Below the pieces are notes generated by a model. The model worked only from the letters and a program-made list of their open reading frames with translations, was not told the DNA's origin and searched no databases. Below are positions 17,037 through 20,366 of a stretch of 32,760 bases of DNA, piece after piece (the stretch's first letter is position 1; every line of letters begins with the position of its first letter). Location: assembly GCA_031291795.1 (NCBI GenBank), contig JARLIJ010000362.1:1-32760 (forward strand), given 5' to 3'. The stretch is from Acetobacteraceae bacterium (GTDB taxonomy: Bacteria > Pseudomonadota > Alphaproteobacteria > Acetobacterales > Acetobacteraceae). The position numbers were made by a program, and so were the translations under genes.

Positions 17037-18233
17037 TCACGCCACGCCGGTCTTGTGCAGACGGGCGAGGTCGTCCGCCTCGACCCCACACAAAGCGGCC
17101 AGCAGCGCGTCCGTGTGTTCGCCCAGCAGGGGCGGACGCGTGATCTCGGCAGGTGAATCGGAGAGTTTGATCGGACAGCCGACGGTCTGGTATGTGCCGC
17201 GCGTCGGGTACTCCACGTCCACGATCATGTCGCGCGCGTGCAGATGCGGGTCGGCCAGCACCTCGCCGGTGTCGAGGCAGGCGCCACACGGCACGCCAGC
17301 TGCGCCCAGGATGCGCATCGCCTCGTGCTTGCTGCGCTGGCGCGTCCAGGCCGCGACGATCGCGTTCAGTGCGGCGCGGTTCTCCCAGCGTGCCTCCGCC
17401 GAACCGAAGCGCGGGTCGTCCGCCAGGTTCGGCATCCCCATTGCCGCGATCAGGGGTTGCCACATCTGCGGTTGGGCGAAGATGTAGACATGATCGTTCG
17501 GCCCACCCGGCGCGCACGGGTAGGTCGTTCCGGGTACGGTGCGGCCCAACTGGTTGCCCGTGCGCGGCGGTGGGTGGCCGAAACGCTGGTGGTCGCGCAA
17601 GGAGACGCGGATCAGGTTGACCACCGCGTCCTGCATGGAGACTTCCACGTGCTGGCCTTTGCCGGTGGCGTGGCGCTGCTGCAGCGCGGCGAGGATGCCG
17701 ATCGCCATGTGCATGCCGGTGCCGGAATCGCCGATCGCGGGGAACACGTAGGTGGGCGGGTTCTCCGGAAAGCCGGTCACGGCCATGGCGCCGCCCATGG
17801 CCTGGGCGATCGGCTCGAAGCTTTTGAAGCCGCTATAGGGGCCGTAGGTGCCGAAGCCCTTGATGGTGGCGTAGACCAGCCGCGGGTTGATCTGCCTGAG
17901 CGTGTCGTAGCCGAGGCCCAGGCGGTCGAGCGCGCCGGGGCCGAAGTTTTCCAGCAGCACGTCGGACTGGGCGATGACCTGCTTGAACAGGGCTTTGCCC
18001 TCGTCGGTCTTCAGGTTGAGCGTGAGGCTTTGCTTGTTGGCGTTGAGGATCAGGAAGAACAGGCTGTCGCTGTCCGGCTTGTCGCGCATGTTGGTGCGGG
18101 CGACGTCGCCGCCTTGGGGTTCCTCCAGCTTGATCACTTCGGCGCCGAGGAAGCCCAGGATCTGGGCGCAGGCCGGGCCTGCCTGGTTGTGCGTCATGTC
18201 AATGACGCGGATGCCTTGAAGTGCCTGGCTCAT
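17037..18233 (-). CDS. CaiB/BaiF (type III) CoA transferase
   Basis: 398 aa, cytosolic. It transfers CoA between carboxylic acids. The N-terminal Rossmann part starts ALQGIRVIDMTHNQAGPACAQILGFLGAEVIKLEEP, and the catalytic Asp is D169 in PAIGDSGTGMH, the same residue number as in formyl-CoA transferase. LLENFGPGALDRLGLGYDTLRQINPRLVYATIKGFG (93-128) and the C-terminal GVPCGACLDTGEVLADPHLHARDMI are family landmarks. Closest by eye to the formyl-CoA/succinyl-CoA:acid group; the acid is unknown. ATG 18233 is the family-typical start, although the frame stays open further upstream through low-complexity Pro/Thr codons. A G-rich run lies just upstream. Confidence 0.9.
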   Translation of the reverse strand: MSQALQGIRVIDMTHNQAGPACAQILGFLGAEVIKLEEPQGGDVARTNMRDKPDSDSLFFLILNANKQSLTLNLKTDEGKALFKQVIAQSDVLLENFGPGALDRLGLGYDTLRQINPRLVYATIKGFGTYGPYSGFKSFEPIAQAMGGAMAVTGFPENPPTYVFPAIGDSGTGMHMAIGILAALQQRHATGKGQHVEVSMQDAVVNLIRVSLRDHQRFGHPPPRTGNQLGRTVPGTTYPCAPGGPNDHVYIFAQPQMWQPLIAAMGMPNLADDPRFGSAEARWENRAALNAIVAAWTRQRSKHEAMRILGAAGVPCGACLDTGEVLADPHLHARDMIVDVEYPTRGTYQTVGCPIKLSDSPAEITRPPLLGEHTDALLAALCGVEADDLARLHKTGVA

Positions 18234-18259
18234 GGTTGTGGTCTTCCCTCCCTTTGGTT

Positions 18260-18298
18260 GGGGAGAGTGTGGGGCTGTTGGGGTGGGGTGGGAAGGGG
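18260..18298 (+). other. potential G-quadruplex run upstream of CoA transferase
   Basis: Runs of G at 18260-18263, 18271-18274, 18280-18283, 18285-18288, 18290-18292 and 18295-18298, with loops of 7, 5, 1, 1 and 2 bases, on the plus strand. It lies 27 bp upstream of the minus-strand CoA transferase start, so the G-rich strand is the template strand for that gene. Confidence 0.5.
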
Positions 18299-18380
18299 TT
18301 GGCTTCGCGCGGCCTGTTGGCTGCGGGGATGGTCTCAATGATTCGGCAAGGTTTGGCTGGCAGGATCTTCTTGCAGAAGA

Positions 18381-18415
18381 AATGGAACCACAGATGCACG
18401 CGGATGCACACAGAT
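18381..18415 (+). repeat. left 35-bp inverted repeat of GxxExxY unit
   Basis: Begins AATGGAACCACAGATGCAC and continues with two further copies of a roughly 10-base unit (GCGGATGCAC, ACAGAT). Identical over 35 bp to the reverse complement of 18799-18833; the bases just outside differ. It contains the ATG of the enclosed gene at 18404. Confidence 0.92.
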
Positions 18416-18796
18416 GAGACCGTGCTGAACGGATTGTCCGAGCGAATCATCGGGTGCGCGATGACGGTGCTCAATTCGCTCGGGGCCGGATTTCTGGAGA
18501 AGGTCTATGAGAACGCCTTGGCGCACGAATTGCGCAAGGTCGGCCTGTCTGTATCGCAGCAACATGGCGTGGTCGTTACGTACGACGGGGTCGTCGTGGG
18601 TGCCTACGCGGTGGACCTGCTGGTCGAAGACAAGGTGCTCGTCGAGTTGAAGGCGGTGCGGGCGCTCGACGCTATCCATCGTGCCCAATGCCTGAACTAC
18701 CTGAAAGCGACCGGGCTCACGCTCTGTCTGCTGCTCAACTTCGGTAAACCACGCCTCGAAATCACGCGGCTAGTCCTGAGTCCCGGAGACATCTGA
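18404..18796 (+). CDS. GxxExxY family protein, PD-(D/E)XK nuclease-like
   Basis: 130 aa. The naming motif is G29-F-L-E32-K-V-Y35 in LGAGFLEKVYENALAHELRKVGL. A nuclease-like core follows: D71 in AVDLLVED, then E81 and K83 in VLVELKAV, the D-x9-E-x-K pattern of PD-(D/E)XK enzymes, and QCLNYLKATGL (96-106), which matches the conserved helix of that fold. The first residues MHTDE are encoded by the left inverted repeat; relatives often begin MNTD or similar (from memory), which suggests the repeat-start arrangement is general. Function is unknown; DNA cleavage connected with spread of its flanking repeats is one hypothesis. The frame is open far upstream, but the conserved part begins at about residue 11. 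Confidence 0.85.
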   Translation: MHTDETVLNGLSERIIGCAMTVLNSLGAGFLEKVYENALAHELRKVGLSVSQQHGVVVTYDGVVVGAYAVDLLVEDKVLVELKAVRALDAIHRAQCLNYLKATGLTLCLLLNFGKPRLEITRLVLSPGDI

Positions 18797-18798
18797 AT

Positions 18799-18833
18799 AT
18801 CTGTGTGCATCCGCGTGCATCTGTGGTTCCATT
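18799..18833 (-). repeat. right 35-bp inverted repeat of GxxExxY unit
   Basis: Exact reverse complement of 18381-18415, beginning two bases after the stop codon of the enclosed gene and ending GTGGTTCCATT. Between its end and the GT87-type gene (stop at 18957) lie 123 bp in which I see no gene. Confidence 0.92.
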
Positions 18834-18956
18834 GCTAAGTAATACCGAACGGTCAATACATTTGCCGGTTGGTGTCGCAACTATAATGTGGAGAAAGGAG
18901 GCTTGTACAGCCGCCGCATCCCACAGCCTTCTTTGATCGGCATATGTCGGTCAAGA

Positions 18957-20174
18957 CTACCTTGCGGTCGCCTGCATTCCACGGAGCAGTGCCGCACGCG
19001 TGATTGCGCTTCGCTCGATCCGCCATGCCAGGCACAGAGCGACGGCGAGCAGCAGGAAGCCGCCGATCGGATGCAGTCCGAGGTAGAAGCTCCATGTGAT
19101 GGCCAGCGCGGGCCACATCCACAGGCCCGCGAGGGCAGCGCGCTCCGGCCAGGCAAAGCCGGTCGAGAAGCCAGCCTGTGCCAGCACGGCAACCGCCAGC
19201 ATGGCCGGGGTCGCGTCGTACACGTAGCCAAACGGCGTCGCCAGCAGAGGAAGGACGCAGGTCAGCGCGTTGCGCCAGCGTCGATCCGCATGGGGAAGCG
19301 ACCAGGCGCGCACCACCAGCACGATGGCCACCAGAGCGGACAGGCTCTGCCCGATCGTGGCGAGGCGCCGATCGGCACCCCATCCCTGCAGCGTGACCCA
19401 CATGGTCGGCATCGCGTATTGCGGCGGAATGCCGTATTCGTGCAGCAGCTGAGCGGTCATGCGCGGCATGCTTTGCGTCACGAATCCAATCCAGGCCTGC
19501 GGGCCGAAGACCACAACGGTTGCTGCGATCATCGCCACGGATACCAGTGCCGCTGCGGCGAAGGCGCGCCGATACCCGCCGGCGGCAAACGCGAATGGCA
19601 GCAGAATGCCGAGCTGCGGCTTGATGATAAGCAGGCCGGCGCAGGCACCGGCGAGAATGGGACGCCGGTCGACGCACCAGATGGCCGCGATCAGCAAGCC
19701 GGCTGTCAGGGCGCCATTCTGGCCGTAGGTAAGAGAATAGAAGGCGGCCGGGCTGAGCAGCACGATCAATGCGACGCGCCTGTCTGCCACCGCCGATCGC
19801 AGGACCAGGCCCAGGAAAGCGAAGGTCGCACCAAGCCAGACGATGAAGGCGACCGGGAGCGGGAGCAGGCCGAACGGCAACAGGAGCAGGAGCATCGTCG
19901 GCGGATAGGACCACGTCGCGAATGCCTGCATCGAGCCGGGAGCGAGCTGGGTTGCCAGCCAGGCATTGAACGAATCCGGATCGAATACCCGATCGAGGCT
20001 GCCGATCCAGAACAGCCTGGCGCCGCCCCAGAAATACGCAAAATCGTGCAGCAGCTGGTCGCTTGGATACGAGAAGAATCCTGCACCGTGCTGGCGGATC
20101 GGGAGAAGGAAGAGGACGACGTCCAGCAGCAGGCAGCAACCCACCAGCAATGTTGCGATACCCCGATCGACCAC
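18957..20174 (-). CDS. GT87/DUF2029-family glycosyltransferase-like membrane protein
   Basis: 405 aa with ten or more transmembrane segments spread over its length. N-terminal periplasmic loop DFAYFWGGARLFWIGSLDRVFDPDSFNAWL follows the first helix, as in polyprenol-phosphate-dependent mannosyltransferases of the GT-C fold; SPAAFYSLTYGQNGALTAGLLIAAI (about 140-164) and LLIIKPQLGILLPFAFAAGG are typical of DUF2029/GT87. Members of that family add mannose or arabinose to lipids or proteins outside the membrane using lipid-linked sugar; the acceptor here is unknown. It starts with GTG at 20174; no better in-frame start is seen. It stands alone on the minus strand and is divergent from the next gene. 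Confidence 0.8.
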   Translation of the reverse strand: MVDRGIATLLVGCCLLLDVVLFLLPIRQHGAGFFSYPSDQLLHDFAYFWGGARLFWIGSLDRVFDPDSFNAWLATQLAPGSMQAFATWSYPPTMLLLLLPFGLLPLPVAFIVWLGATFAFLGLVLRSAVADRRVALIVLLSPAAFYSLTYGQNGALTAGLLIAAIWCVDRRPILAGACAGLLIIKPQLGILLPFAFAAGGYRRAFAAAALVSVAMIAATVVVFGPQAWIGFVTQSMPRMTAQLLHEYGIPPQYAMPTMWVTLQGWGADRRLATIGQSLSALVAIVLVVRAWSLPHADRRWRNALTCVLPLLATPFGYVYDATPAMLAVAVLAQAGFSTGFAWPERAALAGLWMWPALAITWSFYLGLHPIGGFLLLAVALCLAWRIERSAITRAALLRGMQATAR

Positions 20175-20366
20175 GCGAACGGCATTCGATCCTGTAACAA
20201 AACGATTTCCGCTGACGCCGAACAGCCGCTATCTCGGGCAGGTCTCCTTACAATGAGGTTTCCAGACTTGCGCGCGTGTCGCCGACATCGACAGTCCCGT
20301 GCCCGAGGCTGGCACGCATCCTCGCTTCGCGCCAGAATGCCCGCTCGGGAGCAAGAGGAGGAAGCA

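Follow-up and report, generated by a model that had tools for sequence, protein, structure and literature searches.

A single gene packed between two perfect inverted repeats, with no known transposase beside it, raises two questions: whether such a unit is mobile, and whether the protein of the enclosed gene acts on the repeats. The unit lies in a stretch of 32,760 nucleotides from an Acetobacteraceae bacterium, which we call the window, and its gene encodes a GxxExxY protein. The original prediction had raised both possibilities and had compared the protein with the REP-associated tyrosine transposases (RAYTs). We therefore compared the unit with other GxxExxY loci in the same genome, in related genomes and in named genomes of other phyla. 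The genome of the window is assembled in 417 contigs with a completeness of 69%; in the labels below G stands for a genome (G000 is the window's genome), C for a contig and L for a fetched locus.

The unit, its nuclease gene and its occurrence

The two arms, read on opposite strands, are identical and enclose one GxxExxY gene, and the coordinates and length given for them by the original prediction were correct (Table 1). With one mismatch the inverted repeat grows to 38 bp at 97% identity (18378-18415 and 18799-18836). The ATG of the gene is located within the left arm, and its stop codon ends 2 bp short of the right arm. Chance origin of the repeat was rejected, because none of 200 dinucleotide-preserving shuffles of the 700 bp around the unit gave a score above 13, against the observed score of 35. 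No Rfam family matched positions 18200-19000 at E values up to 1.

Table 1. Features of the GxxExxY unit and its neighbouring genes in the window.
Feature	Position	Strand	Remark
Left arm	18381..18415	+	perfect over 35 bp; 18378-18415 with one mismatch
Left arm modules (three, ~10-bp)			CACAGATGCA / CGCGGATGCA / CACAGAT
Right arm	18799..18833	-	exact reverse complement of left arm; to 18836 with one mismatch
GxxExxY / PDDEXK_3 gene	18404..18796	+	130 codons
Codon E32, E of the GxxExxY motif	18497..18499	+	nearly invariant
Codon D71, PD-(D/E)XK site	18614..18616	+	
Codons E81-L82-K83, ExK of the PD-(D/E)XK site	18644..18652	+	
Codons Q95 to Y99, Q-x3-Y	18686..18700	+	
Left neighbour, CoA-transferase family III gene	17037..18254	-	outside the unit
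Right neighbour, GT87 glycosyltransferase gene	18957..20174	-	outside the unit

The window protein is a member of the GxxExxY / PDDEXK_3 family. It matched PF13366 (PDDEXK_3) with an E value of 1.6e-40 and 138.6 bits against a curated cut-off of 22, and TIGR04256 (GxxExxY) with 2.7e-42 and 143.8 bits against a cut-off of 35, and its PD-(D/E)XK residues are intact. The nuclease-like pattern of D71, E81 and K83 had been read correctly: all three are invariant in 22 aligned homologues, as is Q95, with E32 and Y35 nearly so. Over a set of 84 homologues G29, D71 and E81 never vary, and conservation is at least 90% at E32, K83, Q95 and Y99. The Q-x3-Y at Q95-Y99 resembles the motif of RecB-type nucleases.

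The predicted structure of the window protein had a pLDDT of 95.2. Its best structural match was SSO0001, which we take to be a Cas4 protein (E 8e-4, TM-score 0.54, the sole hit below 0.001), followed by LHK-Exo (1.5e-3) and lambda exonuclease (6e-3), with TM-scores near 0.54. Taken together, the conserved residues, the confident model and these structural matches make it very likely that the protein is a nuclease of the Cas4/lambda-exonuclease type. Such proteins are the solved folds closest to the model, but their identity is about 14-18%, the targets have about 200 residues, and the unit contains no CRISPR or Red partner.

Other searches gave little. The sequence search of solved structures found no clear relative (one weak hit, E 0.24), and the window protein matched nothing in PADLOC up to an E value of 1 and nothing significant in PHROGs. 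The relative L020 showed weak PADLOC matches to Cas4 (best E 0.003). Relatives in plasmid and phage records were absent at E up to 1e-5, and among 103 pattern matches in viral contigs none was confirmed as a relative. PF13366 was the sole Pfam family reported at E up to 0.001, and the Rpn family PF04754 was unmatched. The Pfam and TIGR profile searches found no DDE or HUH transposase domain in the window unit. In L293 (G152:C65:147970-148320) and L040 (G014:C190:35392-35739) the GxxExxY matches are located in open frames of 1326 and 756 codons, which are possibly fusions or high-GC artefacts.

Units were located elsewhere through the GxxExxY gene or through its arms. Among 254 distinct GxxExxY loci, arms were present at 132 of the 221 testable ones, compared with 5 of 784 control positions. 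By group, arms were found at 35/84 loci in the genus, 24/39 in the family, 19/27 in the phylum, 53/70 in named contigs, and 1/1 in one more. Among ordinary ORFs of comparable length on the named contigs, 3 of 196 had arms. Named genomes were scanned with the subfamily of the window, which gave at least 568 confirmed relatives; in the best 80 of these, with 56-70% identity, flanking arms (score at least 14) were found at 54 of 72 testable loci against 1 of 408 shifted positions. From the same best 80 of at least 568 relatives, 52 named-contig units with an arm score of at least 16 belong to 14 named phyla or divisions plus four unplaced labels, and they include archaea (Methanosarcinales). The window unit is one case of a general pattern.

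The ungapped test found no arms at 89 of the 221 gene loci, including 49 of 84 in the window's own genus; these loci may be decayed, gapped or truly without arms. Where arms are present, they are built from runs of 8-10-bp modules and an outer tail, and the modules are oriented inward in 111 of 126 units, outward in 11 and unclearly in 4. At L056 imperfect inverted repeats (630-815 and 1189-1361) run about 190 nt outward, with 62% identity over 191 columns, so the true ends of the element in this subfamily may be well outside the arms.

Dispersed copies, empty sites and target duplications

Further copies of the repeat, with and without the gene, are present in the window's genome and in its relatives. 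The window's genome has gene-less units on C124, C147 and C397, and also an outward-facing arm pair at C324 and a single arm near a contig end at C133. From G099 we fetched 11 gene-less units, ten of which (L070-L080 without L072) align as one family with a longer and a shorter outer end. The longer ends are like AGAAAGCAATTTGGAACC and the shorter ones like CAGAAAAATGGAACC, and about 80 bp beyond them the units again share some faintly similar sequence. Each of two gene-less units had matching repeats in 10 of 33 genus genomes, and part of the matches are arms that flank genes.

Gene-bearing copies are dispersed too. The window's genome has 12 GxxExxY matches, several of which are pieces, and G156, from the same genus, has 32. 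Several of the matches in G156 are incomplete or have internal stops. Sister-subfamily copies were identified at five loci of the window's genome (L053-L057): L053, L054 and L056 are 83-86% identical, with surroundings that are unrelated. L057 is a derivative that has lost internal sequence and retains its two arms with only the first 40 or so codons. In a wider comparison, 104 locus pairs can be aligned over the gene and short flanks and lose homology beyond these on both sides. Eleven of these pairs had further collinear homology and were excluded from the count of unrelated surroundings. The other 93 pairs involve 83 loci, and both loci have arms in 44 of the 93. A separate comparison of L101 with L290 was set aside, as the 100% right flank suggests one contig under two ids.

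Filled and empty sites were compared at the unit on C124 of the window's genome, for which 29 loci were fetched, 13 of them with both neighbouring genes on one contig. In 4 of the 13 relatives (G177, G150, G158 and G176) the two genes abut or overlap without the unit. In the other nine the two genes are 68 to 1069 bp apart, and the four spacers inspected hold no such arms. At the left-neighbour gene of the window's own unit, the stretches fetched from nine relatives contain no arms and no GxxExxY gene; other genes differ in this region as well, which keeps it from being a clean empty site. A query for empty sites with L073 yielded no clean site; most of what it returned was a neighbouring gene that is repeated. 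In the window about 2095 bp (18262-20357) separate the CoA-transferase match from the next conserved stretch, and about 963 bp in the relative G157; the GT87 gene may be a variable insert too.

A clear insertion was found in L175 (Planctomycetota), where a 460-bp unit (2450-2909) lies between perfect 27-bp direct repeats (2423-2449 and 2910-2936). The unit separates an aminotransferase class-V gene, putatively sufS-like, from an iron-sulfur assembly gene (PF01883), and it has split an Fe-S operon. The 27-bp repeat is the end of the upstream gene, and the stop codon of its second copy overlaps the start codon of the next gene. The insertion point is thus the end of a coding gene, with no arm module in the target. 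In L312 (G430:C274) 61 bp of a gene start (54 identical) are repeated on both sides of the units, and we take this gene to be dihydroorotase-like. Two tandem units are present in L312:1-780, each followed by a copy of the gene start, and the relative L326 has one unit. An exact 16-bp direct repeat was found in L388.

In total, direct repeats with a score of at least 14 flanked 10 of 133 gene-bearing units, compared with 1 of 782 controls made from mismatched flank pairs. For at least five of these ten (L151, L153, L298, L343 and L296) the direct repeat is arm or outer-end sequence that recurs in neighbouring units, and we therefore count three clear cases that resemble target duplications of differing length, namely L175, L312 and L388. 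Gene-less units had direct repeats in 12 of 65 cases against 15 of 600 controls, a comparison confounded by tandem arrays. The window's own unit has no detectable flanking direct repeat (best score 7; shuffled median 7).

As judged by this comparison of loci, the GxxExxY units are mobile. Gene-bearing units occur in unrelated surroundings, and at one insertion the target is duplicated perfectly over 27 bp. The opposite picture, with the unit at the same locus everywhere, no empty sites and no other copies of the repeat, is not what the genomes hold, and the mobility raised by the original prediction is borne out at this level.

Tandem copies show where units may be added. In L296 and L349 the right arm of one unit is joined to the left arm of the next by a 17-bp linker. 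On a deltaproteobacterial contig (L118:540-1125) about four gene-less units of about 148 bp form a head-to-tail array adjoining a GxxExxY gene, and in L118, L402/L154 (one contig), L143 and L151 gene-less units next to the gene form long direct repeats. The tandem copies suggest head-to-tail amplification, and tandem units and gene-less arrays together suggest that the arms themselves are sites of insertion or amplification. All these cases, with the tandem units of L312, would suit a process like that of homing endonucleases, in which arm-like sites are cut and host repair of the break copies the unit into them, with dispersal depending on arms that already exist. Homing is not known to leave a target duplication, whereas the unit of L175 was inserted into a coding end free of arm modules and has a 27-bp duplication. 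We regard homing as an improbable account of the units.

Maintenance of the arms and their match with protein subfamilies

The two arms of a unit change in step. Across 92 units, the left and right arms of one unit are 93% alike, against a mean of 60% between a left arm and the right arms of other units of the same type. For 68 of the 92 left arms the best match is the right arm of its own unit. The same is visible in two homologous gene-less copies of the window's genome, L003 and L010, where the arms of L010 share changes that are absent from those of L003.

Mismatches between arms tell whether this likeness is kept in RNA or in DNA. In 4094 pairs from 126 units there were 100 G.T mismatches, 90 A.C mismatches and 125 of transversion type. 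The first two numbers are equal statistically (p = 0.51), and pairing as sense RNA would favour G.T, so upkeep of the arms as sense RNA was rejected. As G.T is not tolerated above A.C, the arms are probably held at the DNA level, by fold-back conversion or by a DNA-reading protein. This bears on an explanation in which selection keeps the arms because they serve a resident gene in regulation or at the RNA level, for instance as an mRNA hairpin, and the units hardly move. Such a role would agree with the left arm overlapping the aligned gene start in 42 of 126 units, and with some units that stay unmoved at one same locus across species. It is contradicted not only by the mismatch counts but also by gene-less units, unrelated surroundings, unit-free sites and the 27-bp target duplication, and we consider it very improbable.

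The modules of the arms go together with the subfamily of the protein. Among the 126 units overall, those with the protein signature E-K-V have GAT modules in 61 cases, RAG modules in one and ties in five; those with the signature E-S-x have RAG modules in 36 cases and GAT in one; the remaining signatures are few or mixed. On a tree of 108 rows, from which ties, short rows and rows with stops were left out, the module label changes 4 times, compared with about 34 times after shuffling, and most forks of this tree are weak. Host base composition was rejected as the cause of module type, since nine genomes, the window's included, hold both GAT and RAG types. With only about four label changes, joint inheritance of arms and protein offers an alternative to active recognition, and the match between subfamily and module could be plain co-inheritance.

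Arms and gene also occur together in genomes. The arm pattern of the window was found in 6 of 150 family genomes, and all six are among the 19 of 150 that carry the gene (chance about 2e-6). For the wider GAT pattern the gene is present in 8 of 10 genomes; G094 and G145 have no gene. RAG arms at counts of at least 10 and at least 3 times the control were found in 5 of 150 genomes, all gene-bearing, with G060 as the exception (nine RAG matches and no gene). RAG counts of a few per genome are background, as the reversed-pattern control gives similar numbers. Two genomes have many arms for their genes, namely G067 with one gene and 24 arm matches, and G109 with one gene that has an internal stop and 12 arm matches. 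Such an excess is expected if gene-less units are moved in trans.

The co-occurrence and the match of subfamily and module give indirect support to the possibility, raised by the original prediction, that the protein acts on its own repeats. Another explanation accepts that the unit is mobile and treats GxxExxY as cargo: a different transposase would move the arms, and the nuclease would only benefit the element or the host. A nuclease is not known to join DNA alone, and arms without an intact gene do exist, with none in G094 and G145 and only pieces in G080, as a cargo gene would allow. The cargo explanation fits poorly with a module type that follows the protein subfamily through 14 named phyla or divisions (in the best 80 of at least 568 relatives) and within the nine genomes with two types, and with arm patterns that are concentrated in gene-bearing genomes. 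We judge it unlikely, though it deserves to be kept in mind.

A proposed mechanism and its relation to known systems

The reading that we prefer, with a probability of roughly 0.6, is that the unit is a mobile element with one gene, the nuclease of which recognises the arms of its own unit and mobilises gene-less derivatives as well, in a REPIN/RAYT-like manner with an unrelated enzyme. The GxxExxY nuclease would bind the modules of its own arms, probably in single-stranded form or as an extruded hairpin or cruciform, and would cut or trim at the arms. PD-(D/E)XK nucleases cut DNA and are not known to join it, therefore a partner is needed: host replication or repair, or some other partner, would complete excision or insertion. 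Gene-less hairpin units would be mobilised in trans by this protein too. Staggered cuts whose distance varies could produce target duplications of variable length, and fold-back synthesis, copying one arm from the other, could make the arms alike within a unit and different between units.

The unit looks like a widespread jumping element, with an enzyme that fits no known transposon class. DDE/HUH insertion sequences also carry one gene between inverted repeats, and target duplication in some cases is a further likeness, but no such transposase domain is present here. Common insertion sequences make target duplications of one fixed short length, whereas the clear direct repeats of GxxExxY units have 16, 27 and 61 bp.

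The closest likeness in way of working is with REPIN/RAYT systems. Passages of PMC3116915 describe REPINs as inverted repeat pairs that form hairpins, are dispersed without the gene and have lineages matching those of their RAYTs, and RAYTs as single-copy and apparently not self-mobile. GxxExxY units likewise have hairpin-forming inverted repeat pairs, dispersed gene-less units (including inverted repeat doublets in the same genome as the gene), a gene flanked by the same repeats, and repeat and protein lineages that go together. They differ in the enzyme, which is a Y1/HUH transposase there and a PD-(D/E)XK nuclease here, with only PF13366 found, and in the gene, which is multi-copy and located at unrelated loci. 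The comparison with RAYTs made by the original prediction is thus useful for a possible way of working and fails for the enzyme family.

For the gene-less units a second comparison is with MITEs, which passages of PMC10969869 describe, including Chunjie of Geobacter uraniireducens, as short non-coding elements with terminal inverted repeats, insertions in operons and size variants. The gene-less units, and these only, share the short dispersed form with terminal inverted repeats; insertion in operons and size variants are also alike. Chunjie is likened here through the description in that review and not by sequence. Unlike MITEs, the present units have a gene-bearing form without a known transposase, and their arms are repeated modules that change in step.

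A looser parallel is given by the Rpn/YhgA-like nucleases (PF04754), which according to passages of PMC5350276 are PD-(D/E)XK proteins, sporadic and often several per genome, and are reported to promote RecA-independent recombination. The fold class, the sporadic distribution and the several copies per genome are alike, but the Pfam family is another one, and the term 'inverted repeat' is absent from the main text of PMC5350276.

In the literature covered, which leaves out most subscription journals, we found no assigned role for the common GxxExxY family and no description of these arm-flanked units. One-gene mobile units with inverted repeats are already a known kind; proof that the nuclease is what mobilises the present units would make them a new class. 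We lean, by a narrow preference, to the broader view that GxxExxY proteins are the mobilising enzymes of an unrecognised class of elements in bacteria and archaea, in which a single PD-(D/E)XK nuclease would recognise module-built hairpin arms, move the gene that encodes it, mobilise hairpins lacking the gene in trans, and could leave long target duplications of variable length, with the joining done by the host. If this is true, genes annotated as 'GxxExxY protein' and the palindromic intergenic repeats adjoining them would be one mobile system that spans many bacterial phyla and extends to some archaea. The enzymes that move DNA would then include a nuclease for which no joining chemistry is known, and its subfamilies would provide matched pairs of enzyme and arm.
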